DNA of 64,000 bases, taken from NCBI GenBank assembly GCA_963971425.1, contig OZ020517.1, positions 8,992,501-9,056,500 of the forward strand. Reading direction: 5' to 3'. The stretch comes from Bryoerythrophyllum caledonicum (taxonomy: Eukaryota > Streptophyta > Bryopsida > Pottiales > Pottiaceae). Under the pieces are notes generated by a model. It was given only the letters and a program-made list of their open reading frames with translations. It searched no databases and was not told the DNA's origin. Below, piece by piece: positions 15,950 through 42,234 of the stretch. The translations under genes were made by a program, and so were the position numbers. Each line of letters opens with the position of its first letter. Within the stretch, counting starts at the first letter, position 1.

Positions 15950-17658
15950 CACTACAAGAAATAGGAGGTCTAAAGTTTAAACATATCCTTAACCCCTAAA
16001 GTTCCTTGACAATTTCCCTCAAAAACTATAAGTGGTACTAGCTTTCAAACCACAAATCCAAAAAACAAAATAAAAATATGTCCACGAAGCTCTTATAAAA
16101 AGCAATCTAGAATAAAAATTTCAGAGAAAAGTGATTTTTTTTCGAAATTTAGGAACCTGCCCAAAAATAAAAAAATCCCTTCGAAGGAGACTCTGGTCCT
16201 TTAGGGGTTAAAAACAACGTTCGCGGGAAAAGCAACGTATGTTTTATTTTGAGGTCTTCGTACACCCTTTGCTTTGTTTCTATGAAAATCGTCAATGGAG
16301 CAGCTAGTGTTCATAGTGTCATGGATAGGTTCTCTCGAGGCGTATTAGAGCATCCGCACCCATACGCGCCAAGAGTCTGACACTCGCAATAAGTGGATGA
16401 AAAATACTAAGGGCCCTTCAAAAGTACCTCTTGGCCCTCAACTTCAGCGAGTCAAGAATTGGCTCTCCAAATCTAACTTTAGTTGACGGAATCTAACATT
16501 CTACTTGTGATTGGTGCATTGACTATTTGGCGAGCGCTTTTGGTGCTTGAGGGCGTGCAAGGGTGGGGGAGTGTGATTTCAAGAGCTCTTCAAATACAGA
16601 TGAATAGTGTTAGCGAGTCACCTTTAGCGAGCATGGATGGAGATGCTCTTAGGTGGAAGAATAATAGGGCAGTGAGAGTCGGAGTAAAAAGGTCATTTAG
16701 GGTTTGAAGGAAATTAAGTGCGTTGGCGCCTCTTTGCATTCCCGCCCTCCATATCCATGTCCTCGCTCCTCTTCTTCAACAATAGCCTCCTTGATGCTCT
16801 TCTTGCTCCTGCTCGGCCTTGTTGTTGGCCTGCAAGACATCATGTCCTCTCGCTCCGGCCTCTACGCAAGTGCTCGTTGTATCCTTCATGGCGTGCACCT
16901 TTCAGGTTAAGTTCAAGTGCTACGGATTCTGCTACTTTGCAATGGCGCTCTCCTCACTTAGGCATTTCTTCCCGAGGTTGTCCCTCGCGGTTGGCGTGAG
17001 CAAGATGTTAGAAAAGTTGCACCTGATTGGCTCCTCGGACACTCAACCTCCCCCAAACCCTAAATCATATTATAGTTTACTTGTTGACGTCTAGGAACAA
17101 TTTTTGAAGGTGTTTAGCAACGTTAACAAGGTGTTTAGCAACGTATTGAAAAATTCCTAAGCAACGCCAAGGAGCTTGCTTTGTACATAAAACCATGCTA
17201 CAACTGTTGCTTCTTTAAAAAGCAAGGCTCCCCTAGGTGTTGCTTAGGAATTTTTCAAACACCCTATGTTCTTGTAGTGGCATGTGTTATGGACGATCAA
17301 CCGACATATATGGCGGACGACATCTAGACCAACCGCATGTGAAGGGGTGAAGCAGTGATTAGGGCACTAATCACGGCATAGGCTAGAGAAGCTTGTCGGA
17401 CAAGGAGCACAAAAATTTTTTTTAAAAAAAAAACTAAAAATTAAAATCACTCCAGTTGCCCTCATGTTTCCTTCAAGTGAAAATACGTTCCAATCGACGT
17501 TCTTGATGAATTTGCATGAAACACCACCCCTAACGTTATACCTTCATAATGATGCCTAGGTCAACTCTAAAACAATGTTTCAAGAAATTTTTGGGGGTCA
17601 ATTCTAGTGTAGTTAGCAACGCCACAAACGTTGCTCAACGACTATTTTTCTTGTAGTG
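15950..17658. mobile_element. CACTA (EnSpm) element 3, non-autonomous, 1.7 kb
   Basis: The ends are CACTACAAGAAATAG (15950) and CTATTTTTCTTGTAGTG (17658), with a perfect ACC target duplication (15947-15949, 17659-17661). Repeated CAACGTT/GCAACG motifs lie near the right end (17100-17170, 17610-17640). These termini differ from the other two CACTA elements, so this is another family. It carries a nested Tourist-like MITE. The frames at 16704-17094 are GC-richer than the surroundings but hold no domain I recognise and could be a captured host fragment. Confidence 0.9.
16348..16648. mobile_element. Tourist-like (PIF/Harbinger) MITE, 301 bp, nested in CACTA element 3
   Basis: The inverted ends GAGCATCCGCACCCAT (16348) and ATGGATGGAGATGCTC (16648) are flanked by TTA (16345-16347, 16649-16651), the PIF/Harbinger target preference. 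The interior has inverted GCGAGT/ACTCGC segments. There is no coding capacity. Confidence 0.82.
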
Positions 17659-17873
17659 ACCATCCATGTAGAACACATGACCATTTTGCAACTTTTCAAG
17701 CATGTAGTAGGTGCAATATAGATCTAAATTATAACTGTTATGTGTCATTGGATCGGGCTCAAGTTTCAACACATAAACAAACTTTTGTAACTATCGTATA
17801 CATGAATTCCTACACTTTGTATGTCAAATACACAGATGACATCATGTTGCAACCCAAATGTGACTTCTCTAAC

Positions 17874-18033
17874 CATCAACCCTTAAACGTCAAAAGGTGC
17901 CGCTGGTGGCCACACTATACACGTATAATGTCGTATTTGAACATGATTAGGTTGAGATATTGAAATGACCTCCAAATTAAAGATGTTAGTTGAAGAATTT
18001 TCAAATTTCCAAAGGTGTAAGTCTGCTAGACTG
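17874..18033 (+). repeat. MITE family A, left part of the copy split by the giant hAT element
   Basis: It begins CAACCCTTAAACGTC, the family terminus, and runs in register with 39567-39803 until GTCTGCTAGACTG at 18033. The rest of the same copy resumes at 36835. The last eight bases, CTAGACTG (18026-18033), are the hAT target duplication. Confidence 0.88.
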
Positions 18034-18270
18034 CAGGGTTGTCTATTGTGTCGTGACGGTGTCCAAATCCGTCACAATGTCACAATGTCACGACACAATG
18101 TCATGCCGTCATTATGACGGTTCGTGACATTATCGTGATGGAGCCATTTTTACTTCCAAATAATCAATATTTACATTTACCTCAAAAGAGACACGTCGGA
18201 ATTTGTGTGCCACATGTGCGGACATGTCATCAACCAAATTAATTACATACGCGGTAATTTACCACATTGT

Positions 18271-18806
18271 CCGCAGTCCCCGTCTGCCCCGTCCAAACAT
18301 TCTGCTCTCAATCCGCTCCCCATCCGGGCCCCATTCACACAGCATCCGCGGCCCATCCGCGGCCTATCCGCGCACGTATCCGCACCGTATCCAATTTCCA
18401 TCCCCGTAAACCGTCCGATCTTCGTCCGCTCCCCATCTGCGCCTACATCCGTGCCATCCGCGTGCCATCCGCAATTCCCACCCGCCCCATCCGCTCCCCA
18501 CCCGCACCCATCCGCCCTTCTGCTCCCCATCCGCAGTCCCACCCGCCCCAATCCCCTCCCCACCCGCACCCATCCGCCCTTCCGCTCCCCATCCGCAGTC
18601 TCCATCCGCCCCCTTCCGCATTCCATCCGCACCCATCCGTAGTCCCCATCCACCTCCATCCGCCGTCCCCATCCACCTCCATCCGCCCCCATCCACTCCC
18701 CATCCGCCCCCATCCGTAATTCCCATCAGGCCCTGTCCACCCCCATTCGCCCAAGGTCCTTCGCCCGTCCGCTGGACCCTGCCTCATCCGCGCCCAACCG
18801 TCCGCA
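18271..18806 (+). repeat. CCATCCGC array 1, upstream of the hAT transposase
   Basis: Dozens of irregular 9-12 bp units of the form CCCATCCGC or CCACCCGC, interspersed with AGTCCCCA and CTCC spacers. The units read CCATCCGC toward the transposase gene. The array ends about 20 bp before the TATA box at 18827. It is open in several frames on both strands only because the repeat lacks stop codons. Confidence 0.9.
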
Positions 18807-18826
18807 TGCTCCGTACAAAGTCCAGT

Positions 18827-18834
18827 ATAAATTC
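18827..18834 (+). promoter_or_regulatory. Probable TATA box of the hAT transposase gene
   Basis: TATAAATT at 18827-18834 follows array 1 directly and lies about 145 bp before the ATG at 18978. The same array-then-TATA order is found before the other three genes of the element. Confidence 0.6.
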
Positions 18835-18977
18835 CTATCTTCTTAGGGTGACCTTACTTATTCTCGCTTAGTGCGTTTCAAGACTTTGGATTCTTTGTAC
18901 AAGAATGCATTGCATGAGACCCCATTGCTGAGGAAGGTTTGAGGAGCCCTTAGTGGCACTTTCATTCTTGCTACGCC

Positions 18978-21900
18978 ATGCCGCGTCGGAATTCTGTATG
19001 GGATCTATGGTACGAAGACATGGGTCTCACTTCTTCAAGATCTGCACGACAAGTGAAATGTCGGTTTTGTTCTCACACCATGTCCTATAGAGCGGACATG
19101 ATGTTGTCCCACATGAGGTACCATCCTCGTAACGAGGCAGGACGTGATGTTCAAGTGTGTAGGATGGTGCCTCCACATGTACGTGTGTTGTTTCAAGAAT
19201 GTGATGGGGGTGTCCCGGATCGTCCTGATGTTGCCAACAATTTATCCTTTCACAGAGCCGGCGAGGATGAAGTTCGGGTGGAACCTTTATTATCATTGTC
19301 TCAGAACAATGACGTGGAGCAAGTTCAAAATTTTCAAAGCACTAGTGACGTGGAACCAACACGGATAGAGACTGAACCTAGAGAGCTACGACAACTTTCT
19401 TTGACCGAGGGGTTCAACTCTTCTGCAAAACAACTTTTGGATAGGGTTTGATCTAGTGCTTTTTACGAAGCAAACATTCTATTTAATATCATTAGGCACC
19501 CTGCTTTTTTAAAAGCGGTTCGTGAAACTGCACGCGTATGAATGCCGGCATACAACCCACCGTCCTACAACGCCGTTCGTACAAAGTTGTTGACAAACAA
19601 GAGAGCAGATCTAGAAAGGGGGATCAAAGAGAAAATGGGTGACTCTATATCAAAGTATGGAGTAACAATATGTAGTGATGGTTGGAACAACGTTCAGAAT
19701 CGGCCATTGCTAAATGTTGTTCAGTCAGGCACGAAAGGGGATGTTTTCCTGGGCACCATCGATACATCGGGAAATTATAAGGACCACTTCTACGTTGCTT
19801 CTCAAATCCAACCGTTTATGCAAACAGTTGGGCCCCAAAATGTTGTCCAGGTATGCACCGATAACGCTCCAGTCATGGCGTCCGCTTGCCGTAACATCAT
19901 GCAAGCGATTCCCCATCTCTATGTTCAAGGATGCGCTGCTCATTGCTTGGATCTTTTACTGGAGGATTGGGACAAAGAAAATTGGGTGAAAAGGATTGTG
20001 AGGAAGGCTAGGGTTATTTGTTTATTCATCAAGAACCACCACGCTCCACAAGCAATCTTCCGAAGGCTATCGCCAGATCTTGCTATTCGTATGCCCAATG
20101 AGACACAATTTGCAACCAACTTCATCCTGATTGAACGCCTCCTCCAAGTTCGCCAAGCCCTAGAGAGAATGGTGGTTGATGACGCATGGCATGCTTTCAT
20201 GGCGGAGTTGCGGACAAAAGCCCCAGCTACACATATTAAAGGCTTGTTTGCATGGCAAGTGATACGCTCCGACGGGTTTTGGGATACATGTGTGAATTTT
20301 CAGTACATGGTGTTGCATGTGGAACGTACCCTTCGTGTATTTGACGGCAATGCTCCTGCTATGGGCGTTGCATGGAAGATTATGCATGATTTGGAAATCC
20401 ATGTTCAAGGGTTTGTCAGGGCCCCGTTCCAATTGGGGCAAGAATTGGCAACACGGGCATTAGATGCCTTTAACGCGAGGTGGAGGCTTATAGTAACTGA
20501 CCTTCATTGGGCGGGAGCTATGTTAAACCCTTCTTTGCGAGGATGGGCCCCTTTGCATGAGAATGAGCATTCAAGACCAATCTTAAATCAAGTCCTTCGA
20601 AAGCTAGTTTCGAGTGAGGAAGATTTTGGAAGGGTCCTCAACCAATACCAAGACTTCATTGAAAATAGAGGATCATTTGTAGATTTGATGGATCCAAATG
20701 TGCTTAATGTATTGCCCCATGAATGGTGGGATGCAATGGGAGGTGGCGCAAAGGCATTGCAGATAATTGTAAGACGCATAATTGCTCAAGTGTGTTCCTC
20801 ATCAGCATGCGAACGCAATTGGAGCATGTACACTTATGTACACAACAAGTCCCGCAATCGCCTTAAACATAGTCGAGCGGAGGACCTCGTGTACATTTAC
20901 ACAAATTCTAGGCTTCTAAGGCATTGAAGGGGGACAAGGGTTGGTCAGTGGCTTGAGTTAAATGGTGTGCATTCCGATGATGAAAGCAACGGAGAAGATC
21001 CTGACGATGCAAATGAGGAAGGACGTTATCCTAACGAGAATGACGAAGAAGATAATCTTGACATAGACGAAGACAATTTGGATTTGGATAGTGGAGATTC
21101 CGATGATGGCGGTGGTGGTGGTCGTCGTGTGGGCGAGGACGTATGGGACTCGGATGGTCAAAACTCTGATGGTGATGGTGGAGGTGGAGACATAGGGGGT
21201 TTTTATTTCAACGAAGCCGAGGCAGCACAACAACATGTTCAAGGTCCATTGAACCCGAGTGGAGATGATGATGGGCCGTCGTTTAGACAACTTTCTGCTG
21301 GTCAGGGACTTTGGCGTGACCACGAAGGGGGGCTACAGAACTTGGCGATCCCTGCAAACGTTGACTTGCCTTCCCAACCTCAAAGTGATTCGCTATCATT
21401 TGGTGATGAAGGGCAACATATCTTGAATCATCAAGAAGTGGAGGTCCTTACAACGGCTGGTCGTATCTCTTTAACGCCGTCGAGGTCGGTTCGCAATTGC
21501 AATTTAAGTCCACAATGTAATCCGACTTCAATCATAGGAAGGGTAACCGTGCCCCATGATGAAGTTATGAGGAATGCCGGAACCACAGAGATCGAAGCGC
21601 CTTCCCAAGTTGGAATACCACATCGGCCGGTGACCCGTAGTTATGTAATTGCAGGTAGAACCGGTGCAATAACTACACGGGGGATTGGTGCTTCATTGAT
21701 TGCCCTTCATAACGATCGTCCTTGCAATGGAATGGGACAAAATTGTCGTCAAGCCAACATGCTTAGTAGCCTTCAACTTCCTAGCGTGCGAAGGCAACCT
21801 CCTGCTCGTCAAAATCAATAAGGCGATGTCGTGCAAAGTGGTGGGAGGGGGTCTGGAATAGTATTAAGAGGAATGGCTTCCTCCTCGGATGTAGACCTCA

Positions 21901-22265
21901 ATGTGGTTGTCCACGTACCTACAGTTCTTCCACATTGCGGAGCAGCTTCCACTAGCACCTTAAGCAATAATAGACGGCGGAGAACTATACGAGGAACGAA
22001 GAGACGTCGAAGGAATCAAGGTAATACAATTCCATTTACTGGTGAAGATTACAACCCATTAGACGGAAGACCCAATTTGGATGATGATGGGTTATTTGAT
22101 GCCGAGGGATCTCGTCCAACAAGTAGGTTGGTCATTACTAGGGACAACAACTTACAATTGAGAAGTGGTACTCCTCAATCCAACGACGAAGAGAGCACAG
22201 ACGAGTCCGATGTGGATCCACGATGCATAGAAGAAAACAACCCCACAGTTCGAGTGCGAACTTAA
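18978..22265 (+). pseudogene. hAT transposase (BED zinc finger, DUF659, hAT C-terminal domain) with acidic tail
   Basis: One frame of 1096 codons runs from ATG 18978 to TAA 22265, interrupted by four in-frame stops: TGA 19449-19451, TGA 19539-19541, TGA 20925-20927 and TAA 21819-21821. No frameshift was seen. A BED-type finger lies at residues ~8-50 (CRFC, then HMRYH). A DUF659-type RNase H-fold domain follows with SDGW (~232) and CTDNA (~293). The hAT dimerisation domain has SACERNWS (~612), so the presumed DDE triad is present. After SRLLRH comes an unusual tail of about 430 codons, first very rich in Asp, Glu and Gly (20967-21200), then Ser/Arg-rich with a basic patch. The enzyme would bind the element ends and move it into 8-bp target sites. 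As written it cannot be made full length. Confidence 0.9.
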
Positions 22266-23974
22266 GTCCTAGTGGGATGTCTAAATTTCCCAATACACGT
22301 AAGACGAGGTCTATTTATAATATTTTAAATTTATATCAAAAGGGTTCTTAGCAATTTATTAGTATAGATGTTTAAGGTGTACGTTGCTAGATTATGTGGT
22401 AGTATATTTTAATGATTCAAAGATGTTTTAACCATTTGGATTTGCATTGTTACTTCCTATTTTTCAGCTTTGTATGATGACAGAGCTTTATCTACATGTG
22501 TTTTTAGAGACGTTTGTAATCCCCGTTTTTTTAAAAAATGAAAATCATACAAAATGTCGGTTAACTAGTCTTTTTAACCATTCGGATTATCCTTCTTAAT
22601 TTCTTATTTTGACGAATTCGTATTCCCTATGAGCTTTGAGCTCAATTTTTTTGGGGAGGTATTCAAAATTGTATAATTGTTATAGTTTGACACATTTCTC
22701 AAATTGACATACTCTATCCAGCCAATACCAACAAAATCTCTCCCCACTTCCATATAAAACTCCAAGATCTTCATGTGTTTTTTTAATTTATTTTTCCTGA
22801 ATTGTGCAAGTTCTTCTTTGTATTGGCCATTTGGATTTTTATTCTTGGACCTCGAGTTTATGCACCATTGTTTTGAACTACTGTAATGACATGTTATCCT
22901 CAATGCGCTAACATTACAAGAATAAACAAGAACAACTTCTTCATGAGGCGGTCGCAGGCCTCGCATACGACGCGGTCCTTGCACGTGTGAGGGACCGTCA
23001 CAAACGCACGCACTTGCTCAAGGATCTCGCATGGGAACAAGCTCCACATGGCAACCTCCATGTCCATGTTTTATTAACACCGAAATCACCATATTGTCAA
23101 TCCAACCTCATCCCTCTACTTTCTTAGAGTATACATCGTACGTGGTGATAATTGAACCAGGAACCGAATGTTCCGACAATGGAGCTAGAAAGCTAGAAGC
23201 TATGGAAGTCAGAGCATTAGAGACTTTTACACACATGAGCACGACTCTTGAAACATGGCAATATATTGGAAGATGAAAAATGCTTCGTGCATTCAACAAT
23301 TGAGATAGTCAAGAGGGGGTGGTCACAAAACGAACCTGAGCAAACTGAGCACTCACATAGTCAGTTGGAATCAGTTTGCCAAAATTACTGCCTAGAAATG
23401 GTTGCTTGTTAAATATATATATATATATATATATATGTGGATTCTTGAAGTGATTAGCAATTTCACATGTGGTTTGGGGAGGAGGAGTACGATGTTTAAG
23501 GTGCCTTGATGGGATGTGAGGAACTTCATGTGCTTGTCGGCAAGCTCTTGGCGGTGGTATTTACCCCTTCGTGTATTCGGCGGCAATTCTCATGCTATGT
23601 GCATTGCCTAGAAGATTATACAATATTTGTTGATTAATGAAGTAGTCTTGTTCTCAACCATTCGGTGTTGACTTTGTTACTTCCTAATTTGCCATCTTTG
23701 TATGATTGAAGAGCTTTATTTGCGTATGTTTAGGGAGATGTTAAAAATTCAAACTTTAAATATGCTATTCATACTAAGGTACTGGATAAGCGGTCTTTTT
23801 ACCATTCGGGTTTTCAGTCTTCATTTCTTATTTTCCATCCTCGTATAATCTTTAAGCACCAAGCTTGGAATTGTTTTTGGAGATCTTCAAAATTGCCAAT
23901 TCTAAAATTGCGACACATTGTCAATGCAAGCACATACCAAAACAAAACTATTCTTGCCCACAAATACTTAGAAG
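22266..23974. other. Noncoding interior of the hAT element with a ~280-bp direct duplication
   Basis: This includes the transposase 3' flank. Two diverged direct copies lie at about 22420-22710 and 23645-23925, sharing ACCATTTGGATTTGC-like starts, TTGTTACTTCCTA, GAGCTTTAT, TCTTTTTACCATTCGG and GACACATT. Between them, 22900-23370 holds short frames with no recognisable domain, and an AT microsatellite lies at 23412-23436. The second copy runs up to array 2. Confidence 0.6.
23412..23436. repeat. (AT)n microsatellite
   Basis: About 25 bp of pure AT dinucleotide repeat inside the hAT element. Confidence 0.9.
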
Positions 23975-24556
23975 TGGAAGCGGATGGGTAGCGTCTGGGA
24001 GCGGATGGGGAGCGGACTGGGTTGCACACTCGAAAGCAGACGCGGCGCGGATGGGCAGTAGATGGGTACGGATGGGAGGGGGACGGGGAAGCGAACGGGG
24101 CACGGATGCGCGCCGATGGGCGCGGATGGGTGCGGATAAGCCGCGAACGGGGGGCGGATGGGGGGCGGATGAGGGGAACTAGGAAGCGGACAAGGCGCGG
24201 ATGGGGAGCGGACTGGGATATGCGGACGAGACGCGGATGGGCAGCGGACCGGAGCGGGTGGGGAGCGGATGGGCAGCGAACGGGCGCAGATGGGGAGCGG
24301 GCTGGGATATGCGGACCAGACGCGGATGGGCAGCGGACGGGTGCGGATGGGGAGCGGACTGGGAGATGCGGACGAGACGCGGATGGGCAGCGGACGGGAG
24401 CGGGTGGGGAGCGGATGGGCAACGAACGGGCGCGGATGGGGCGCGGATGGAGAGCAGGTGGGGAGCGGGTGGGAGCGGGTGGGTGGCGGATGGGGCGCAT
24501 ACGGTTTGGGACGGGCCGCGGATGGGCCGAATGGACCGGTACACACAGGTCGCGGA
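23975..24556 (-). repeat. CCATCCGC array 2, upstream of RING gene 1
   Basis: Same repeat family as array 1 but inverted: the plus strand reads GCGGATGGG. Units cluster into longer 36-60 bp higher-order repeats such as GGGATATGCGGACGAGACGC and GCGGATGGGCAGCGGACGG. The array ends about 20 bp before a TATA box. Confidence 0.9.
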
Positions 24557-24575
24557 TGATAGGCCGCGGCTACGG

Positions 24576-24584
24576 TATAAAAAG
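24576..24584 (+). promoter_or_regulatory. TATA box and leader of RING gene 1
   Basis: TATAAAAAG at 24576-24584, just after array 2. The ~420-bp leader that follows (24600-25006) is homologous to the leader of RING gene 2 on the opposite strand (about 32640-33050). Shared segments include GACGGCGGGTGTGCGGGGTT, CTTTTGAGG, GTCCTCAAAGGCAAC-like sequence and a GCACTATTTTGAAGTGCA palindrome. The duplication that made the two RING genes therefore included promoter and leader. Confidence 0.7.
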
Positions 24585-25006
24585 AGGGTGAAGTAAAACA
24601 AGGTTACTCTTTCCCACTTTCTCGGGCGCTCTGACGCACTTGCCTCCTTGTTGACGGCGGGTGTGCGGGGTTTCCAGGTGGGAAAGTAGTCCTTTTGAGG
24701 ACATTGATTCCCTCAAGGGAGAATTTGTCCTCAAAGGCAACAAAATAGGTACCAAAGACGTCAGAGATCTGTTGAAGGCGAGTTGTTTCTAAACATTTGT
24801 ATGCACTCCTACGCATCACTATTTTGAAGTGCATGCTTGGGGTTATTTTAGCACTATTTTGAAGTGCAGTTAGTTTTAGGGTGTTTATGGGAGTTTAGTT
24901 ACAGCTAGGAATTTCATATTAGAATAGTTAGTTTACCGGCTTAGTCAATCAGTATAGGATAGCCACTAGAAGTATTTTGTGGTGGTGGTGATTTTAGAGG
25001 AAAAAA

Positions 25007-27136
25007 ATGGCAATGCAAGGCGGTGGTGGAGATGATGTGGGCCGAAGGAGGCCAAATGCGCCAAGCGAGGAAGCTGGTTCCTCAAAGAAACCAAAGAAAG
25101 GGGTGCCTTTGGAGATGGATATTTTTAGAAACACCAAACTATTGGCGTACGATGGATGGAAAGATGTGCCAGAGCCATGGACATGTCAGCAGGCCTTCAA
25201 CCTTGTTGGTTTTGCGCATCTCGATCAGTGGTACCCGGAGGAATCTCACGAAGAGCATTGCCGCAACATACAACTCTCGTGGAATGCCATTATCGACGTG
25301 GATTTGAAGTGGAGGTTCTTGGAGATTTTACGAGCCATCTCTCACCAAGGACGTTGGCCCAAAAATAGCATTCCGAGGAGGATAGGAGCCATGGTGTATG
25401 CGGAGTGTGTGTTGTACAAGCGGGTTGATTGGTCAACAATTCACCAACCGATAACCGCGGGTGGCAATGTTGGGAAGTTTCTTGGCCCGCTACTTTCCGC
25501 AAAGCAACCCATCATTGACATTCCGAGGAACCCGGTTCCAGAATGGTTCCGCACCAATAGTAGCTTGGTTGATCCACCGGACCAACCGTTGCCACCGGAT
25601 CAAGAATTGCCAAAGAGACGAGCTACTGCAACAAGAGCTCAAGAGGTGGCGGTTTTACCATTTGAGTTATATGATGAACTTGGCATCCACAACACCGATG
25701 CAATGGATGTGGAGTCGAACACGCCAATTAGCAATGGAAGTGAACTTCTCGGGCTCGGACAAACCGAGGTAGTGGAACATGGTATCGAGCGCATCAATAT
25801 CACAGATGGCACGGCGCAACGATACCAAGAATTAAATGCGGAATTTTCTGCATTCAAGGCGTTGATGGAAGAGCGTGCAAGAGAAGCGGCGATGAAAACA
25901 TTGACGTTGGAAGCAGAGAAAAATGATTTGGTTGCCAACATGGCCCATTTGCGCATCGAGTTACAAGAAGCAAACATTCGAAAATCGAAATACGAGGCGG
26001 ATGTTACTAAATTGCAACGCGATGCTAGCAAACTCCACAACGAGCAGGACACCATGATGCTAAGCACGGTGTTAGCTTCGACAAAGGCGAAGCAGTATGA
26101 GGCAGAGTTGGCAAAGATTTTTGCTGAGTGGACAACCAACGGTAGGCTGAGAATATTGTTACTCACGTCTTGGCCAACGTTAGATGATATGTATCCAAGC
26201 AATTGGGAAGACATAGATCCACCAGTGTTTAAGGCCAACGGTAGCATTGACTGGGGGCGTATTGTCGAAGAGGATCACCGATGGAATATTCACGAGATGG
26301 TTGGTGGCATTGGAGATGTCTATAAAATATGGGGCCACGTGGATGAGAAGACCAATGATGGATCGCGGTGTGCCATTTGCCAAAATCCATGGGGCCCAGA
26401 AGGGTGCTTCACGCTTGGATCATGTGGTCATTCGTACCACCCTCAATGTCTAATCGAGGATATGATACGAAAGCGTACGTGCACGGTTTGCGAATCGCCT
26501 TATCATGCCCGCTTGTATCTTCAATTTGGCCTTCGGGATTTCATGCCAAGACATTGGGTGTATCGCCAAGAAGACTTCCCAGATTTTGACATTGGCGCTG
26601 ATGTTGGACAACCTGTCACGTGGAATTGGAGATATAACGTCTCATCCGCACAACTTATTGCTGCAAATGAGGAAGCTGTCACATTAAATGATCCAGAGAA
26701 TTTAATGAAGGCGGCAGAGGGCATGTATCCAAATCAACCACCGGATTTCGGCTTGAAGATGTTTTTCTACAACGTAATGGGGTGGCATTACAATCGAGAG
26801 AGAATGACGTTATTGCCGGGAGTGGGAAACGGACCGCATTACAACTCAGCGGGAGAGGAGGCGCTCACCACTACATGATTCAACCGATTATATCGGCGTT
26901 TGGATGGTATCCAAGAAGCTCGAAGTGCAGAAGAGGATCTGCTTGAAGAAAGAACATACCATCAAGCACGACTAAGGGCCGAGGCACTAGACGTTATATT
27001 ATATGATATTTCCCCAGAAGTCAAGGCTTGGCTAGAACGTGAGAGAAACCCACTGAGACGGGGCATGGAAGTGCCTCATGCTTCTCATGGAAACCAAACG
27101 CGCGGTACTGATGCATCCTCGTCGCAACCAAGATAA
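25007..27136 (+). pseudogene. RING-H2/coiled-coil protein 1, cargo of the hAT element
   Basis: The frame runs from ATG 25007 to TAA 27136 (about 709 codons), with one in-frame TGA at 26876-26878 where the paralogue reads on. The start is basic (KKPKKG), then a conserved ~150-residue N-terminal region of unknown function (WYPEESHEEHC, VDLKWRFLEILRAISH, PRRIGAMVYAE). A Glu-rich coiled coil lies at ~272-352. A RING-H2 finger lies at ~454-495: CAIC, then CGHSYHPQC, then CTVC. After it comes a conserved tail with MYPNQPPDFGLKMFFYNVMGWH. RING-H2 proteins usually act as E3 ubiquitin ligases, so attack on a host silencing or repair factor is an inference only. I recognise no named family. The stop leaves the N-terminal 623 codons, including the RING finger, intact, so a shortened product is possible. 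Confidence 0.8.
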
Positions 27137-28209
27137 ATAATGCGGCATGCCTTGAGATGCTGCAGAAGTGAATCTCAATGCGGATAGCAAACAATAGAGC
27201 GTCTATAGTCTCAACATCGATTAAATATTTAGGAAAAACATTAGATGATATTTTCTGATTTTTTTTTGGGTACAGCGTTGCAATGAATACATCTACCTGT
27301 CATATTCTGTGAAAAATCATGTGTCCTTTGGTGTGTAGAAGGTAATGATTCAAAGGCTTCTTTTGGTGCATTAATCTCATAGGTGCATTAATTTGTATTG
27401 CAAAGAAATGTATGTCATGTGCATAACTAGAACTACCTTCATTAGATTCAATATAGCAAAAGTACTTTTGTATATTCAGAATAAATTCGTCCTTCTCTTC
27501 TTCTTTATTTGTGTTTTTTGTTTAAAAGAGCATAATATTTAATTTCCCTCACTCTCCCTCTCCTTCTCCCTCGTCATTAGAATTCATTGTCCATGTCACC
27601 GGGATTCCATGTCCTTGTCATTGGAACAAGAATTGAGGATGGGTGGAAAGAAGAGTTTTTTGGAATTCCTTGCCAGACAATGTGTGGCAATGTGCAATTT
27701 TCCACTAAAGACAATTATTTTGTAACGATGTGAAAAGAAATAATATTACTAGTTTTGACCTTAGGATCTCAATTAAGACTTATTAAGCAACATACTCTCA
27801 AAATTTCATAAACTTGGACCGCAAGGATTGAAAGATTATAGTGTTTGAAGTCAAGCAAATGTTCATTTTCTTCCCTACGTTCAGTGGATCAACGCGGATG
27901 ACTTCACTTGGTGTCAACTTTTTTCACTATTCAAGGTCTAAGTCCATTACCATCATATTAAGCATGATATTAGTTCCTTATTCACCAATTTTTAGAGGCA
28001 GAGGAGTGTAGCATATTCAAAACAATTGTGCAAGGATTGAGGTTCAAAGTTTGTCAATTCATGCTTTAATTTTTTTGTGAAGTAAATATGTTGTAAATTG
28101 ATAATCCAAATGTTAAATAGGAAGGCTTATACCACATATTGTTGTGGAAAAAATGAAAATTTGAATATGAAAAGATCTCTAAGATTTATGTAGAAAAGTA
28201 GATCCTTGA
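27137..28209. other. Noncoding hAT interior, dispersed repeat relics
   Basis: This is the 3' side of RING gene 1. From about 27590 to 28060 it carries relics also seen at 61400-62440 and 46640-46770 (TTGACCTTAGGATCTCAATT, GGATTGAAAGATTATA, GGAGTGTAGCATATTCAAA). They may be untranslated parts of the LINE that follows. A CT-rich stretch lies near 27545. No gene is supported. Confidence 0.45.
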
Positions 28210-29620
28210 TCAAACATCATTAGAAATATTATGGCATCAAGAAATACTAAACCAAAACACACTCAACGCCCAACTCTCCCAAAAACTCTTACAAAAAATC
28301 CTCTCATTTCTTATTTTCAAACTAAAACAAATTACTTTACCAAATGGCACACACATCATGAATAATGAGGACTTCAAAACCTTCCACTTCACCCCATCCA
28401 AACTAATAAAAAATGCCTTATATATTGCCAAAAAACTTTTTTGTCATCCAACATGCCCCACCACATGCACTACTCCGATCAACATACACCCACACTCCTA
28501 CATACTCCAAGACCCATTCGTCACCACCAACAATAACATCCTCCCAAGAACTACCCTACCACCAATCCATCCCCCCAACCCATCACACCCATACCACCCC
28601 CTTTCAACATACATCTCCAAAAATCCCAACATATATCCTATTAATAACATCATACACCATGAACATTTAAAACTTATAAATACCAACAATATACAAAATA
28701 CCTATACAAGATATTTTTGTCCAATGGCTATGGAACCAATATAACTTGAAACTACAAACTCCTACAGACATCGAACCAACAACTCAACCATTTGAAATCG
28801 AACTAATTTGGCTATATCAAAGATATAAATATCGTATTCAAAAAAATAATCCCCGCAAAAATGCACAATACACAATACCCACACTCATTCTAGACTCCTT
28901 AATATCATCCTTCAACATCGAACAATCATACTTCTCTTCCCCCGTCACATGTTCCACCAAATTAAAAAAGTTTTATTCACCATTTGAAAGAGATTAATAT
29001 TTGGGTCCTTGGATAAGGCCTTTGACCACAAATGGGCCGGTAAAGGTATAGCTCACCCTCACAATGAGGAGGAAACTCAACAAGCACTACATTAGATCCG
29101 CATTGCGGCCAAAAACGACTCTCACCACACATTACACTCATTATCACACCGGACAAAAATTGGTACCAAAACTTTAACCAAAAATCAAGCCCATTTCCAG
29201 GCTCCCATATCATTGCATTATTTGAAGCAGAATTACATTTATACGAAGAACCCACTATCCCACCCGAGCTAAAAAAGCCACGAATTGAACCATCTACATT
29301 ACAAATAATATGTGCCCACCACCAAAATAAAACCCTTGGCACCCCAGAACAACTTCACGAACTCAACGCCATAGCAACAACCCTAAACATACGCCGCCTA
29401 TATACAAAAATAGCCCCACCATCAAGTATACAAACCTTGGTAAACCGAGGCAAAAAATGGGCAAAACTAAACTACATCAACAGTACATTAGATTACCTTG
29501 TAACACCTCCACCCCTTCCAAACTACCAAACCTTAACCTCACCAAATTTTGACCCGGCATACAGTTATAATACCGATGGCTCTCTCAAACCACTTGAACA
29601 AGTTAGTCCGGGAAACTAGC
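28210..29620 (+). pseudogene. LINE ORF2 remnant up to the start of RNase H
   Basis: Plus-strand frames at 28237-28744, 28746-28997 and 29340-29619 are strongly Pro/Thr/Asn-rich and out of register with each other, as in an old LINE. The last frame runs through NYINSTLDYLV and TPPPLP to AYSYNTDGSLKP, which matches the opening of a LINE RNase H domain (YTDGS). The remainder of RNase H is lost. The other remnant at 45314-46640 keeps a later part of RNase H and the C-terminal region. This one lies between the convergent 3' ends of RING genes 1 and 2, so it entered the hAT element after assembly. Family assignment is tentative. Confidence 0.5.
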
Positions 29621-30233
29621 GCAAAGAAAAAGCTGGCTATGGCATATACAATTCTATTAAAGAAATTAATGGTCATGGTTTTAGTAGTGGGCATGGTCTT
29701 AGTAGTGGATCGAACAGACACTTTATTCACACCGGCCTCCTTCGGAGATTGGCGTTCTTCTTCTTCTTCTAGAAAAGTAGAAGTTTTTTTGGTACCTTGC
29801 CTGACAATGTGTGAAAAACTCACATTCAATAGAGTGTCCTATTAAAACTTTTTTTCGTTGCCCGAAGTGCCCGCTCTCCCATTTGAAATTGGAAACCCTA
29901 TTAAATTTTTCATTAAATGGCAGATTTAGGGAAAAATTGTTCTCCTATCAAGGTCATAGTAATGTCCTTCTACAATAAAAATTTGAAAGTGGAATGTTGG
30001 AAATTTACACCCGAGGAACCTGACCGAACTTTCAAAAAGCCCATTGTTGACACTTGGTCCTCAAGGGGTTAATAAATTCAAAATAGGCAAAAATATCCCT
30101 TCATAAATTATTGTACCTATATAGCTATGTCCATAATGGCAACAACATGGACGAGGATTTTCCAATATACTAATTGAAGGGGGAATCTGTTGCCGATCAT
30201 ATTACCCGGTTTCCTTGCCTAAACCTTGGCAAA
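29621..30233. other. Noncoding spacer 3' of RING gene 2
   Basis: It contains relics of the dispersed repeat seen at 27640 and 61920 (GGTACCTTGCCTGACAATGT, 29791-29810) and a GTTTAAAC-free AT-rich remainder. Nothing coding is seen. Confidence 0.4.
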
Positions 30234-32626
30234 TTACTGTTGCGGTCTTGAAGGGTTGGAGGAGTCACCGCCTTGTGCACGAACATTACTCCGTGTCCCA
30301 TATCCATGGCGTTCATGGCGAATCGCCATTTCCAAATATCGAGGTATGTCCCCACCATTTAGCCATTCCTTTACCTACGGGGCAACTTCATCCAATATGG
30401 CATCGAGCGCCGCCACCAGTAGTCGTTTACGATGGTAGCGTTCTTCCAAAAACAAGTCCTCTGTACCAGTGTTCTCAGCTAGCGGAGTTCCACGATAGGC
30501 TCTGCGTAGTTCCAAGGTGTCTACCGCTCGCTCACCAGATGAGTTGTAATATGGTTTTGGTCCTAAACCGTGCACCAACTCCTTCCTCTGAGGATTCCAA
30601 TGCCATCCCATAGTTTGATAAAAAAACATCTTCATCCCGTACCCAAGCGGGTTGTCAGGATACATCTCGTTCGCAGCTTGAATTAGTTTCTCTGCATCAT
30701 CTTCCAAGTTTCCCCCCCCCCAAACTTATGCCACACCTCTGCCTTTGACATGTTGTGCCTCCAGCTCCACTCAACACGGTGCCCATTGAAGTCGCCAAGT
30801 TCAAAATCATAATCATCTTGGCGATACACCCAATGGTTAGGCATGAAATCCCGGATGCCAAATTGCAAATACAAACGTGGATGTAATGGCGCTCTACAGA
30901 TACTGCACATACGTGAGCGAATCATACTCTTGATTAGACATTGTGGATGGAACAAATGGCCACATGATCCAATCGTAAAACACCCTTCTGGGCCCCAAGC
31001 ATTTCCGTAAATAGTACATGACGATCCGTCGGATGTCATTGGATGTGGTTTTAGCCACAACGGCTTCCCCATCATATCTAGCGGATAGTCATGCACATCC
31101 TCGATGTTCCAATGATAATCGTCTTCTGTGACGTGCTTCCAATCAATGCTATTGTTGTTCGTCTGTATCGACGGTTCCTTGTTGTCCCAACTTTTCAAAT
31201 ACATAGTTTCCTCTAGAGGCCACGATGTGAGCAAGAGGGTCCTCAATTTATTTTCCAACGTCCATTCGGCAACAATGCTCTTGAATTCCGCCTCATACTG
31301 CCGTGCTCGTACCACCGCAAACACCGTTATAAGCATCATCTCTTTCCGCTCGGCAATGGTTTCTAAAACTAAGGCTATCAATTTATTTATCTTTGATTCG
31401 TCGTTTGCACTAATTGCCTTTAATTCATCCACTTCACGTTGGAAATTTGCACATGTCGCCTTGTTTGTAATATGTTGTGCTTTGACTTCTTCTAGTCCTT
31501 TTTTCAAGCCTGCGATTTCATCTTGATAATTTCTATTATCATTCTTGGAATGGTCAAGCTCATCGCATAACAGGGCCATTTCGGCAAGCATGGTGTCCTT
31601 CTCTGACTCTAGCACATATGCTTTGAATGCAACTTCTACGACATCGTCCCTATTGCATTGCAACCTTGTAATTTCTACGCGGAGCACTTGTAATTGCGCC
31701 TTCAACTAAACACACGTATCGTGAATATAGGGGTCTACATGAGCTTGCAAATCACCAATACTGACCATTGCCCTTGTTCCTTCAATTGCATCGCCCAGTC
31801 GTTCGTATTCATGATCACTTCATGTTTTGCCAACAACCCCCCCGCCATGGTCACTTACAGTACCATGCGGCATGCATGTTGTTGATATCTGAATGGCTTC
31901 GTTTTGATCCGCATCGGTCACCTCCATAGATAATGGGGATGGCATTGACTCCACGTTAATCTCATTACTCACATGGATGCCCAACTGCCTCGCATCTGTG
32001 ACTTCGGGCTCACGCAATGATTGTTCAAGGGCATCGACTACTTTTGTCCTCTTAACTACTTTCCTCTTTTGTTTAGGAGATGCTTCTCGGTCCAGTGGCA
32101 ATGATTCATCAGAGTCATCAAACAAGCTTGGATTATTGCGGAACCATTGAGGAACGGATTTTCTTGGAATCTCTACCGATTTCTTTGCAGAAAGGGGGCG
32201 TCCAAGAATCTTCCCACCACAATAAGGTTTGTGTAACGTTGACCAATCTACCCTCTTCCCCAATTGATGTTCCGCATACATCAATGCCGCGATACTTCTA
32301 GGGATATTATTTTTGGGCGATTGCTCCAAGTTGGAAATTGCACATAGAATCTCGAGGAACCTCCACTTCACATCCACATCTTTGATGTCGCGATACGTAA
32401 TAGCCTTTGCTGAACAATGTTTCTTGTGGAGTTCTTCCGGCCAGCATCTATCAAGATGCGCAAACTTAATATAGTCCATAGCATTTGTGGCAGTCCATGG
32501 CTCGCAAACACTTTCCCATCCTAGTTCCTCTAGAACATCACGATTTTGATATACTTCAAGCTCCAAATCCGTAGGGTTCCCCTTCGGCTTCTTCGCTGGA
32601 CTAACAACTCGACCTCCACTATGCAT
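30234..32626 (-). pseudogene. RING-H2/coiled-coil protein 2, paralogue of protein 1
   Basis: It reads from ATG 32626 to TAA 30234 on the minus strand (about 797 codons). In-frame stops are TGA 31820-31822, TAG 31706-31708 and TAG 30375-30377. There is one frameshift at a run of ten C on the plus strand (30712-30721). Order matches protein 1: conserved N-terminal region (FAHLDRCWPEELHKKHC, VDVKWRFLEILCAIS), basic linker (KQKRKVVKRTK), coiled coil, RING-H2 (CTIYGN at the first pair, then CGHLFHPQC and CSIC), tail MYPDNPLGYGMKMFFYQTMGWH. The second Cys of the first zinc pair appears changed to Tyr (CTIY against CAIC), so zinc binding may be impaired. The homopolymer shift could be an assembly error. 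The coiled-coil part is longer than in protein 1. Confidence 0.8.
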
Positions 32627-33056
32627 GGTGGAAAATTATTGGAAACCTCTATGGGCTCCCGCAATACAAAACAATATTATGTTTGAACCTATTATCTTGG
32701 CGATATTATCTATTGTGATATGAGAGTTCCAAATGATTGCTCAACTAAAACAATTATAACAACTACCACAACTACTTGCACTTCAAAGTAGTGCTGAAAT
32801 AAAGTCCCAATCATGCACTTCATAATAGTGCTACCTGGGAGTATTAAGACCCTAAACCCTTCTTGGAATATCTGATGTCTTTTGTACCTGATGAGTTGCG
32901 TTTGAGGACAAAAATTCCCCCCCTTGGAAGAATCTTGGACCTCAAAAGGACCACTTCCCCACCTTAAAACCCCGCACACCCGCCGTCAACGTAGAGGCAA
33001 GTGCGTCAGGGCGTCCTGATGAGTAAGAAGGAGTGAGGCCACATTGAAATCCTCTT

Positions 33057-33066
33057 CCTTTTTAAA
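33057..33066 (-). promoter_or_regulatory. TATA-like box of RING gene 2
   Basis: On the minus strand the sequence reads TTTAAAAAGGAAGAGG, aligning with TATAAAAAGAGGG of RING gene 1, at the same place relative to array 3 and to the homologous leader. Confidence 0.5.
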
Positions 33067-33073
33067 CACGTCG

Positions 33074-33455
33074 GCCCTGTCCATCCCCATCCGCCCCATC
33101 TGCTTCCCACCCGCAGCTCCCATCCGCAGTCCCTATTTGCTCCCCATCCGCGCCTATCCGCACCCATCCGCTTCTCTCCCGCTTAAATCCGCTCTCCACC
33201 CGCTCCCCATCCGCAGTCCCTGTCCGATGCCCATCCGCACCGATCCGCACCCATCCGCTTCCCACCCGCCCCCATCCACTCCCCACCCACCTCCATCCGC
33301 TCCCAACCCGCTCCATGTATGCAACTCCCATCCGCAGTCCCTGTCTAATGTCCATCCGCGCCTATCCGCACCCATCCGCTCCCCACCCGCCCCCATCCGC
33401 TCCCTATCCGCGCCCATCCGCGGCGCGTCCGCTCCCCGACCGTGCGGTTCCCAAT
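33074..33455 (+). repeat. CCATCCGC array 3 between divergent genes
   Basis: CCATCCGC/CCACCCGC units with CAGTCCCTGTC spacers. One end abuts the TATA-like box of RING gene 2 (minus), the other the TATA box of the kinase-like gene (plus), so it looks like a shared bidirectional upstream element. Relative to RING gene 2 its units point the same way as array 2 does to RING gene 1. Relative to the kinase-like gene they point as array 1 does to the transposase. Confidence 0.88.
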
Positions 33456-33475
33456 GTTCGCGACCCGTCGGGGCC

Positions 33476-33485
33476 TATATAAAGG
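33476..33485 (+). promoter_or_regulatory. TATA box of the kinase-like gene
   Basis: TATATAAAGG at 33476-33485, about 20 bp after array 3 and about 205 bp before the ATG at 33692. Confidence 0.65.
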
Positions 33486-33691
33486 CAACGAGGCCATTGA
33501 CAATTTCACTTTTTGCCCTCTACTCCTTGCCCAATGGAAACCCGAGACCTTGTTGCGTGAGTAGCGTTGCACGGGTTTTGACGGTACATGAGTTTGGAGT
33601 GACGAATTGCGGGGAAACACTTCCAGTTTTTTTCCAGACTCACTCACATAAACATTGCACACTGGATAACCGGTTAACATTTTTTCACACA

Positions 33692-35716
33692 ATGGCTGAC
33701 AACAGGGTGCATTACCAAGATGCAGATATGCAACTCCATGAAGCTTATCATGTGGAAATTGCATCTGCTATTGCAGCTACTGACAATGTCAGCGGTGGTA
33801 ACTTAGCAAGAGGCCAAGGCAACAGAGGTGGACCAAGCGAGAGAAGTGGCAGACGAGGCGTCGGAATGAACCAAGAATTTTTTGCTCTCGGACGAAGTAA
33901 TTCTCGTGGATCACAATCACATTCACGAGGTACACGAGGATCTCTAGGGGGGTCACGAGGATCTGTGGGGGGAGGAGGTGGAGCTGGGCGGTCTCGAGGA
34001 TCAGAAAGCTTGGTTGGGGATCGAAACCTTGGAGGTCGTAGTTCAGGTGGCTCCAGTGTTGATCCCGAGCGTAGAGCCTCATCGGTACGACCACTTTCAC
34101 ATAATGTGGTACCAACGCCATCAGAGTCCTTAGTTCCCAGCAAACCTTCAAACGCAACAGGACGTGGACGGGGCAAACGACCAGCAGATTCAGAGGACTC
34201 GGGACGTGGGAAGAAAAGGCAAAGGACCTCTCATCTAGATCAGATGAGCAAGCTTTTCAGGACCAAGGTTGTGGCCAAGTTATTATCATGGTATAAAGAC
34301 CATGACCTAAGTCAGCTGGAGAGACGCTACTTGAATCAAGGTGCTGCTCGATTGGAATCGTTGGGGGAGAGATTGAAAACAATTGTGGAGGGCGTTGCTA
34401 ACGAAGAAACATTTGCCGAAGACAAACGTCGTTTTTCTTACGAAGAGTGGGTAAAGGAATACACTCAGAATGCCATTTTTAACCCCGTGGTAACGCTTTG
34501 GGAGGTACAAGCCAAGATATTAACAAAAGAAGGTCGTGTGATATCTGGGTGGGAAGAATTGAAGGTGAAGTTAGATAAATTCAAGGAGGGGGTAATGAAA
34601 GTCAAGCCTCGAGGGAGAGTGAGCCAAAATATCCCTTGGATTGAACGTGATTTGTCCGCGCGAATTACAACGAGAGGTCGCGAAGGAGTAGTGTGGCTCC
34701 CATTAGAGGCGGAGGTAAAGGAACTAGATGGGAGGAACTATGAAGGTGGCTTTGGAATTGTGCAACGTGTGAGCATTGAAGATGTGAGCTGCATTCCACC
34801 AAGTATAGAATTCGCAGGGAAGACAATGAAGGAGGATTCGAAGACGAAGAACCGGGAGAAACGATCAATCGAGGCGCTAGCGAGTCCAGTGGACCATGCG
34901 GGGGTAATCAAGATTTAATTTCTCGATAGAAAAACATACGAGTCATATACTGTATGGTAGAACGGAGGCTCACTTGCGTCTGTTTGGAGAATTGACTCAA
35001 AATACGAAGAGGAACATGAGGATGACATTCTAAGAAGTGCTGGAATTGACCTCGATGCCCGTCTAGAATTATGCATTAATCGCAAAAACCGGGCATAATT
35101 AGCATGGGCACTCATGTGCATCATGGACGTGATACATTCTCAACGGTTATTGCACAATGATTTGAGTCCCAACAATGTTATGCTTCATTTCCCAAAAGAC
35201 AAAACCGATGCCATATACATTGGGGTGTGTGATTCGGGAATGGCATCCTGGGACGGCGAAGATAAGATGTCGAACTATGGTCGACCATCTAGCAAGGAGG
35301 TGCAAGCTTACAGAGGTAAATACCAACATGCGGCCCCCGAGCTATTCCATGTGTATGGCAAGCCCGGAACGCCAACATCACCGAGAAGAATGGGAATAAA
35401 GCATAAGCACAAGCATAGATCTGAGGCGTATGCAGTGGGGTACTTGGCAAGGAGGATTTACAACCGCGATTGCTCTTCAAGCTTGTTCCAGAAGAACAAA
35501 AATCCAAGTTCATTGTCGCGTCAGTTTGAGCAAAGTATGGATGAGTTGTTGAAACCTGATCCACTAGAGCGATCCACCGTCACGCATGTGGTAGACATGT
35601 TGAAAAGACCGCCTTACAACCTGGAAACCCCATGGGACTTCTTCCGCAATGAGTGGTTTATTGTGATTTCAGACCTTATATTGTGCTCGATATGTCGGAT
35701 GTTGTCAATGATGTAA
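33692..35716 (+). pseudogene. Kinase-like protein with Gly/Ser/Arg-rich N-terminus, cargo of the hAT element
   Basis: ATG 33692 (MADNRVHYQD) to TAA 35716, 675 codons, with in-frame TAA 34916-34918, TAG 34970-34972 region and TAA 35096-35098. I reject the longer upstream frame because it only crosses array 3. Residues ~30-150 are rich in Gly, Ser and Arg, followed by a nuclear-localisation-like stretch (RGKKRQR). A protein-kinase-like domain follows: glycine loop YEGGFGIVQ (~351), FAGKTM as the likely lysine strand, HNDLSPNNV as the catalytic loop (~487), CDSGMAS in place of DFG (~512), and APELF (~547). HND for HRD and DSG for DFG are unusual, so activity is uncertain. The closest named family is not known to me. 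The stops separate the N-lobe from the C-lobe. Confidence 0.75.
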
Positions 35717-35889
35717 AGTGTATACTTCTTTTGTAATCCCTTTTTGTAACAAGAGAAATCCTACGTGGACTTCCCTGATGTTTTGAATAAAGGCAAAGTG
35801 TTTATGAAACGATGTTTTCGTCTTCCCATCCTGCCCTTCAAAACCTCTCAAATAAAGACAGAATAACTCAATCCACAATCTCACAACCG

Positions 35890-36575
35890 CCTAAACGGCA
35901 ACCAGTTCGCGGCCCATCCACGGCAGTCCGCTCCCCATCCACATCCTATTCGCACCCATCCACAATTCCAACATGCCCCCATCCGCACACCATCCGCAGC
36001 TTCCATCCACACTCCCTATCTGCTCCATCCGCTCCCCACCCGCTCCCCATCAGCAGTCCCCACCCGCCCCCATCCGCTCCTCATCAGCAGTTCCCACCCG
36101 CCCCCATCCACTCCCCACCCGCTCCTCATCCGCAGTCGATACCCGCTCCCCATCCGCTCCCAACCCGCACACCATCCGCAATACTTGCGTCCGCGGTTCT
36201 TGTCTGCTCCCCGTCCACGTCCTATCCGCACCCTTCTAGGCCCCATCTGCAGTCCCCATCTGCTCCCCACCCGCTCCTCATCCGCAGTCCCCACCCGCCC
36301 CCATTCGCTCCCCACCCGCTCCTCATCCGCAGTCGATACCCGCTCCCCATCCGCTCCCAACCCACACACCATCCGCAACACTTGTACCCGCAGTACTTGT
36401 CCACTCCCCGTCCGCACCCTATCCGCACCCGGACCCCGTCCGCCCCCATCCGCAGTCCCCACCCGCCCCCAATAGCTCCCCATCCGTGGCCCATCTACGT
36501 GCCATCCGCGTCCCATTCGCGCACCTTAAACTGTAGTTCCATCAGCAGTCCCTATCCGCGCCCCATCCGCACCTG
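35890..36575 (+). repeat. CCATCCGC array 4 near the right end of the hAT element
   Basis: The longest array, with a ~170-bp higher-order duplication (compare 36040-36200 with 36265-36420: CGCAGTCGATACCCGCTCC, then CACACCATCCGCAA). No gene follows it before the terminus at 36826, so it may be an orphan promoter or a subterminal transposase-binding region. Confidence 0.88.
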
Positions 36576-36834
36576 TCCGCCAAAAAATGCAAGCTCACAA
36601 AATTTTCACTCAAGGGTTAATATTACACCCCTAAAGGTAAACGAGATGATATACACGTAAGATGTCATTGCCACCTAGGACGGCCACGTCGACCCTGAGG
36701 TAACTAAGTTACCTTTTGTGGGGGTAAAGCCTGTCTTTGACCCTACGTTGACCCTATTGTGCCGTGACGAGAAGGTCCGTCATGGCACGACGCGTCACTG
36801 TCACAATGTCGCGATAGACAACCCTGCTAGACTG

Positions 36835-36912
36835 TAGTACTTTTATGTACCTATTCTACAGAGTAGACCACATCCCTGTATATACGTTTCCCAACTGACG
36901 TTTAAAGGTTAA
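36835..36912 (+). repeat. MITE family A, right part of the split copy
   Basis: TAGTACTTTTATGTACC to GACGTTTAAAGGTTAA continues the copy broken at 18033. It matches 39700-39800, including TATTCTACAGAGTA and TGTATATACG. Its terminal TTAA is shared with the start of the next MITE. Confidence 0.88.
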
Positions 36913-37250
36913 GGTAAGTCCCCCCATAGCCAACTCCTATAAAATTGGGGTATATCCAACCCTCTTCCATCCCATTACCACTAACTCACCTCCAAATGGA
37001 GGTTTGCTATTAGTCAAGACCCTTACTTTTGGTCGTTGGTTATGTTGGGTACCTACTCCAGACCACCCACTAAACATGGGTGCACAGTTTGAAAATTCAT
37101 AATTAATTCAGTTTTCATCGAAAAAATATGAAATCACTTGGGTTGAAATTGTAATTCTATTGGCTATCATTGAAAAATATTAGTATATTATCTCCTCCCT
37201 CCATGAATGCACATTCCTTAACTTGTCGGTTTTAGGGGGGCTTACCTTAA
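36909..37250 (+). repeat. MITE family C, complete copy
   Basis: 342 bp with inverted ends TTAAGGTAAGTCCCCCC and GGGGGGCTTACCTTAA. It is the best-preserved copy of the family also found at 1466-2548 and 15478-15785. Confidence 0.85.
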
Positions 37251-37283
37251 TTGTCTCTTCATGATCTTCTCGTAGTTGCCTCA

Positions 37284-37635
37284 GGGGGGTTTCACACTAG
37301 GGGCCGAGCTCGAGGGGCCGAGCAATTCTAGCAATTTGATTGGCCTAGAGTTGAAAATCGGCCCGTGGGCCTTCACACTAGGGGCCAAAGGCCAAGGGCC
37401 GAAGGGCACCAAAATGCTTACATGGCAACACTTTTTGAGAATTTTGGCGCCAATAGTTCGGCCCCTCGAGGAGAGTTTGGGTCCAACAAGAATAGAAACC
37501 CAAACTCTTGCCGAGGGGCCGAACATTTTCTCATTAAAATAATTTTAATAATTTTTTACAACTCCAAAACTCGGCCCCTCGGCATAGTTTGGTCTTCAAT
37601 GGAGTTCGGCCCTTGGGCTTAGTGTGAAACGCCCC
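37284..37635. mobile_element. Harbinger-type MITE, 352 bp
   Basis: Inverted ends GGGGGGTTTCACACTAGGGG and its near inverse TAGTGTGAAACGCCCC are flanked by TCA (37281-37283, 37636-37638). The interior repeats GGGGCCGA/TCGGCCCC in both orientations and can fold on itself. The ends resemble those of the Harbinger element at 52469-56025 (TTTACACTAGAGG), so that family could have mobilised it. Confidence 0.8.

Positions 37636-42203: not shown

Positions 42204-42234
<31 letters not shown>

Follow-up and report, generated by a model that had tools for sequence, protein, structure and literature searches.

Among plant hAT transposons, grapevine families of fixed size are tabulated at 2.0-5.5 kb (PMC2528002) and maize Ac measures 4.6 kb (PMC3260210); hAT terminal inverted repeats (TIRs) are 5-27 bp long (PMC12506042). 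Accessory genes are described for other plant DNA transposons. ULP1-bearing MULE and CACTA elements are in print (PMC2528002), and in VANDAL21 the VANC protein binds a family-specific short motif, arrayed in non-coding regions including the one upstream of VANA, and reverses methylation (PMC5735166). In fungi, Starships are giant cargo elements generally, and the 14-kb, cargo-bearing ToxhAT of wheat pathogens, carried in a Starship and rated non-autonomous, was renamed ToxTA and moved out of hAT by its authors because of its TA target-site duplication (TSD) and 74-bp TIRs (PMC12506042). We analyzed a stretch of 64,000 nucleotides from Bryoerythrophyllum caledonicum (assembly GCA_963971425.1, contig OZ020517.1, positions 8,992,501 to 9,056,500, forward strand), referred to as the window and numbered from its first letter. 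It contains an element of 18793 bp that is probably a single multi-gene hAT transposon with its own accessory genes and cis-regulatory arrays, now a fossil. The limits of the element are set by the following features, including an interrupted copy of a repeat resembling a miniature inverted-repeat transposable element (MITE).

18034-36826, plus strand: whole hAT element, 18793 bp, delimited by TIRs, TSD, and the interrupted MITE
18034-18046, plus strand: left TIR, CAGGGTTGTCTAT
36814-36826, minus strand: right TIR, CAGGGTTGTCTAT inverted
18026-18033: left copy of the TSD, CTAGACTG
36827-36834: right copy of the TSD, CTAGACTG
17878-18025, plus strand: left half of the interrupted MITE-like repeat, matching 38199-38042 (84%, 161 columns) and 39570-39722
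36835-36917, plus strand: right half of the interrupted MITE-like repeat (36825-36917 versus 39716-39806, 76%)

The two TIRs are identical at 13/13 bp, short as in other hATs, and the TSD has the 8 bp typical of the superfamily, with the same sequence on both sides. The two flanks, 17878-18032 and 36825-36917, correspond to neighboring segments of a single short repeat, as seen in its other copies. When the joined flanks were aligned to five other MITE-like copies, three spanned the insertion point with the target present once, one was gapped at this point, and one covered the left part only. These copies serve as empty-site analogues for the insertion within the window itself. A de novo scan of the window for exact 8-bp repeats flanking 13-bp inverted repeats (up to 2 mismatches, 200-40000 bp apart) returned four pairs, two of them perfect: the 18034/36826 element and the pair 5357/7875. 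The latter lies inside a long inverted repeat (5273-5851 versus 7959-7379), has a palindromic 'TSD', and is a by-product of this repeat at 5.3-7.9 kb. The same scan of 20 first-order Markov sequences yielded 11 pairs in all and no perfect one. We conclude that the element exists and that its boundaries are secure. An earlier, sequence-only reading of this stretch had proposed inverted ends, an exact 8-bp duplication, and a single MITE whose halves abut the ends, and each of these proposals holds. Sub-terminal words distinct from the motif arrays described below were also found at the ends, namely GTGAC/GTCAC and ACAATGTC; the former occurs 8 times in the two terminal 130-bp stretches versus 20 times across the rest of the element.

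Inside these limits, four genes and four arrays of CCATCCGC-type units were located.

18290-18810, plus strand: array A1 (13 exact motifs), preceding the transposase gene
18978-22265, plus strand: hAT transposase with DUF659 and Dimer_Tnp_hAT matches, a single frame of 1095 codons interrupted by 4 stops
23970-24535, minus strand: array A2 (16 exact motifs), preceding RING1
25007-27136, plus strand: RING1, a RING-H2 gene of 709 codons with an internal TGA at 26876, zf-RING_5 at 6.9e-05
30240-32626, minus strand: RING2, mirror-oriented paralogue of RING1 with 3 internal stops and a frame change near 30.7 kb
33070-33440, plus strand: array A3 (13 exact motifs), upstream of both RING2 and the kinase gene, which diverge from it
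33692-35716, plus strand: protein-kinase-like gene with internal stops at 34916, 34958, and 35096, Pkinase match
35905-36585, plus strand: array A4 (11 exact motifs), close to the right end and followed by no gene

On both strands of the 64-kb window, 53/53 exact copies of CCATCCGC lie inside the element and 0 in the four coding spans; within this range, the arrays occupy the non-coding regions of the element, as VANDAL motifs do. Second-order Markov sequences of the element (n = 100) contained 0.89 copies on average and 4 at most. Every gene has an array on its upstream side, a further array lies near the right end, and none was found in the window outside the element, which ties the extra genes to the element and argues against accidental nesting. 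The nearest motif is 278 bp from the start codon of the transposase, 489 bp from that of RING1, 461 bp from that of RING2, and 278 bp from that of the kinase gene. Shortly after the gene-upstream arrays, TATA-like stretches were recognized by eye (TATAAATT, TATAAAAA, TATATAAA), the one of RING2 being weaker (TTTAAAAA). From this placement, and by analogy with VANDAL elements, the arrays appear to be shared cis-regulatory binding sites of the element. A4 may be the trace of a lost fifth gene, or it may serve the right end.

The alternative that survives best concerns the arrays themselves, which could be a GC-rich simple repeat spread by slippage or recombination in a decaying element, with no regulatory role. 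The units are indeed short, variable, and tandem, and the CCGC cores show spacings of about 10-11, 21-22, and 32-33 bp, of which the 10-11-bp spacing could be produced by slippage alone. Exact helical phasing at 10.5 bp was discarded, as 11 bp scored best of the tested periods (0.483 versus 0.336 for 10.5 bp). However, slippage does not readily account for four separate non-coding arrays, found in both orientations, that between them precede every gene of the element and have no counterpart elsewhere in the window. We regard an incidental origin as unlikely.

The product of 18978-22265 gave Pfam matches to DUF659 (8.2e-36) and Dimer_Tnp_hAT (9.6e-11), the latter being above the cut-off and representing the C-terminal dimerization domain of hAT transposases. 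A BED-like zinc finger was seen by eye, and the tail consists of a long acidic stretch followed by a basic one. The motifs CSDGW, CTDNA, and SACERNW, also picked by eye, are candidates for the hAT D-D-E residues. A PDB sequence search returned 0 matches up to E 1 for the transposase, and the read-through gave one chance match (E 1.1). The in-frame stops are TGA at 19449, 19539, and 20925 and TAA at 21819. The stops at 20925 and 21819 may be true ends instead of decay. In a frame that is open apart from the stops, TGA 19449 and 19539 lie upstream of the catalytic core; the intact transposase of an autonomous element is lacking, and the present copy cannot make its transposase.

RING1 displays all eight RING-H2 ligands by eye, and in RING2 one zinc-ligand Cys of the RING is changed to Tyr. 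The zf-RING_5 scores of the two (6.9e-05 and 1.1e-04) are both below the Pfam cut-off. In the PDB sequence search, the best match of RING1 had an E value of 0.0013 and covered the RING domain only. Its AlphaFold model was too poor for fold searches (mean pLDDT 43.6); a long helix ahead of the RING (residues 267-341) is predicted at low confidence. Both proteins are probable ubiquitin ligases. RING2 is 46-51% identical to RING1, depending on the fragment. Over 627 codons, the two genes agree at 62%, 70%, and 44% of first, second, and third positions, respectively, and 42% of fourfold sites (81 sites) are alike. This pattern indicates that the divergence is old and that both genes were long selected as proteins. 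The upstream regions are related as well (24195-24875 versus 33445-32770, 68%), which means that promoter and gene were duplicated together; with these regions included, RING1 and RING2 form a large imperfect mirror image. For the kinase-like gene, the Pkinase match reached 3.6e-08 on the read-through frame, above the Pfam cut-off, and 1.9e-07 on the intact C-terminal open frame, just below it. The PDB sequence search gave 0 matches for the C-terminal frame and a best E of 0.016 for the read-through. The AlphaFold model was again too poor for fold searches (mean pLDDT 33.4).

The present copy is a decayed fossil, and two further features record its history.

23565-23919, plus strand: decayed fragment of a second transposase copy with 3' flank, from nucleotide and protein matches
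28203-29769, plus strand: nested insertion between the RING genes, with the 12-bp TSD TAGAAAAGTAGA at 28191-28202 and 29770-29781

In the first, 23565-23629 is 83% identical to 20329-20393 and 23656-23919 is 69% identical to 22430-22696, with a 24-residue protein match (E 0.021). The second lies inside a repeat also present at 61918-62409 and is probably a truncated long interspersed nuclear element (LINE), as its TSD and an RNase-H-like end seen by eye suggest; it gave no Pfam match. Its 3' part resembles an A/C-skewed sequence at 45222-45265 (84% over 44 bp), and translated comparison revealed no further relative in the window. Later insertions are estimated to make up about 2 of the 18.8 kb. 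All four genes read as single open frames with no evident introns. A reading of the in-frame stops as introns was considered and rejected, since the open frame and its domain-like sequence continue past them. Nor do we press the idea that the entire element underwent strong C-to-T (methylation) decay, given an observed/expected CpG ratio (CpG o/e) of 0.82-0.92 in the coding regions and 1.14-1.35 in the arrays.

The extra genes could also be captured host genes, moved once as a RING/kinase segment by a hAT or by an Ac/Ds-like macrotransposon bounded by the ends of two neighboring hATs. Precedents include gene capture by the grapevine hAT family Hatvine-6 (PMC2528002) and the reported 10.3- and 28-kb Ac macrotransposons of maize, the larger of which excises with an 8-bp footprint (PMC9910405). 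At this locus, the decayed transposase fragment suggests that more than one hAT body was involved, by capture or merger, and a single copy of the element is known. Capture nevertheless leaves the element-specific array upstream of each extra gene unaccounted for. Single open frames without evident introns are unlike captured exon-intron segments, and the mirrored RING pair, whose upstream regions are related, implies evolution within an element that bore arrays. Capture is thus distinctly improbable in our view. Five candidate inner modules were scanned as well, with a control that recovered the outer TIR and TSD pair; none of them was bounded by inverted repeats of 12 bp (allowing 1 mismatch) together with a TSD of 5-11 bp (817, 1, 738, 69, and 10 inverted-repeat pairs, array-derived ones plentiful, 0 with a TSD), TSDs of 2-4 bp and TIR-less elements being outside the scan. 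A very unlikely origin of the RING pair and/or the kinase gene is therefore their arrival in other transposons nested in an ordinary hAT: the insertion at 28203-29769 does sit in another repeat with its own TSD, and arrays of inverted orientation bound the RING pair, but no inner pair of ends was found and CCATCCGC arrays also adjoin the transposase and kinase genes, so that a multi-gene hAT with its own arrays fits better.

Base composition was compared between the genes and their surroundings. The four genes have a GC content of 0.46-0.48 and a CpG o/e of 0.82-0.92, and the latter is 0.52-0.53 in the flank stretches 10000-18033 and 44000-58000 and 0.44-0.65 between the RING genes (27137-30240). 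Several points weigh against a single multi-gene transposon with its own regulatory arrays. The right flank (36835-41500) has a CpG o/e of 0.68 and a host gene one of 1.06, and the third-position GC of an unrelated gene at 58-59.5 kb (0.439) is like that of the genes of the element; composition alone is therefore no proof of a shared history. Only a single copy of the element is known, and scans of viral_contigs with RING1, the C-terminal frame of the kinase, and the transposase returned no relatives. The RING and kinase Pfam matches are weak, and both structure models failed. Array A4 has no gene, and the regulatory role of the arrays is putative. Furthermore, all four genes carry in-frame stops, and activity of the element is not demonstrated from the present copy.

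If the element is a multi-gene hAT, its life cycle can be outlined as follows. The transposase, with its BED-like finger, DUF659 core, and C-terminal dimerization domain, would mobilize the whole unit, with the RING and kinase genes aboard, by cutting at the CAGGGTTGTCTAT ends. The element would then insert with an 8-bp duplication, the target being a MITE in this case. An element-encoded or host protein might bind the CCATCCGC arrays and keep promoters and ends active, as VANC does on VANDAL. In this way, all genes, and perhaps one end, would come under joint control of the arrays, and the targets of the RING and kinase proteins could lie in the host or be the transposase itself. A bolder possibility, which we put forward tentatively, is a lineage of giant multi-gene plant hATs with their own regulon, in which an element protein switches on all genes through the CCATCCGC arrays and defies host silencing, a system that would have evolved independently of VANDAL and Spm, with ubiquitin-ligase and kinase effectors. 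Should the genes and the arrays be retained in other copies, hATs would stand beside VANDALs as plant transposons that bring along a co-regulated set of several element genes, and their RING and kinase products would be new candidate tools against host silencing. Such copies would also provide a plant counterpart of multi-gene transposons without fungal-style cargo capture.

The element shares the 8-bp TSD, short TIRs, DUF659, C-terminal dimerization domain, and end-enriched short motifs with plant hATs such as Hatvine and Ac/Ds, but at 18.8 kb and with four genes it is far from the 2.0-5.5 kb of the grapevine families and the 4.6 kb of Ac. In Spm/En, element-encoded TnpA acts on repeated motifs near the promoter and the ends; Spm/En belongs to the CACTA superfamily and has no RING or kinase gene. 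ULP1-bearing MULE and CACTA elements are likewise plant DNA transposons with an extra gene of a ubiquitin-like pathway, although this gene encodes a SUMO-type protease instead of RING proteins and the carriers are not hATs (PMC2528002). VANDAL21/Hiun, a Mutator-like element with VANA, VANB, and VANC, also unites several genes in one plant DNA transposon and has short motifs in same-orientation tandem arrays, located in non-coding regions including that upstream of the transposase gene (PMC5735166). It differs in its superfamily, its unrelated accessory proteins, and its motif (YAGTATTAY versus CCATCCGC), and VANC binding and demethylation have been demonstrated for it, whereas the arrays of the present element are putative binding sites. 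ToxTA, once named a hAT and similar in size and in carrying extra genes, differs by its TA TSD and 74-bp TIRs from the 8-bp TSD and 13-bp TIRs found here. Starships employ a tyrosine-recombinase captain, whereas the transposase of the present element is of the hAT type, and no recombinase family occurred among the Pfam matches of the open reading frames scanned.

By analogy, in its anatomy of genes and shared arrays the element is closer to multi-gene VANDALs than to fungal cargo ships. The sequence-only reading had described a giant cargo-bearing hAT and had noted that plant hATs are usually smaller. The size contrast agrees with the grapevine data (PMC2528002), and the gene content it listed (a hAT transposase, two RING-H2 paralogues, and a kinase-like protein) is confirmed by the Pfam matches and frames. 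The in-frame stops in all four genes, the further damage to RING2, and the nested insertion at 28203-29769 had gone unnoticed in that reading. One bounded element of unusual size, with a transposase and three further genes, therefore stands; the comparison with fungal cargo is only partly apt, VANDAL-like accessory genes being closer. Neither a Starship-type 'cargo' status of the genes, nor their presence in other copies, nor a lack of earlier descriptions of such elements is established. Among the papers listed, our literature search recognized no multi-gene plant hAT with RING or kinase genes, but most subscription journals and Repbase reports were outside its coverage, and absence from print is not shown.

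Rfam and tRNA scans of the window gave 0 matches. At 58164-60715 (minus strand) lies a gene of several open reading frames broken by stops, which had no Pfam match in the three pieces scanned. A second element around this gene (58-60.7 kb) was considered and dismissed, as no TIR/TSD pairs turned up there except AT-rich ones with repeats of 2 and 4 bp. The likeliest host gene in the window, and the best candidate for a real one, is the GC-rich DUF1645 gene at 41857-43194 (third-position GC 0.89); we take DUF1645 to be a plant-specific family. A PIF/Harbinger-like transposase frame was found at 53062-53742 (DDE_Tnp_4, 1.4e-12). A Tc3-like transposase (HTH_Tnp_Tc3_2, DDE_3) at 13936-14784 has a 75% relative at 5332-6673, and in the stretches 5273-9899 and 13936-15354 the Tc3-like copies are embedded in repeats of about 180 bp, both direct and inverted. 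Finally, 10634-11392 and 47684-48802 are two copies of a repeat, 89% alike, that contain tandem units of 187/188 bp.

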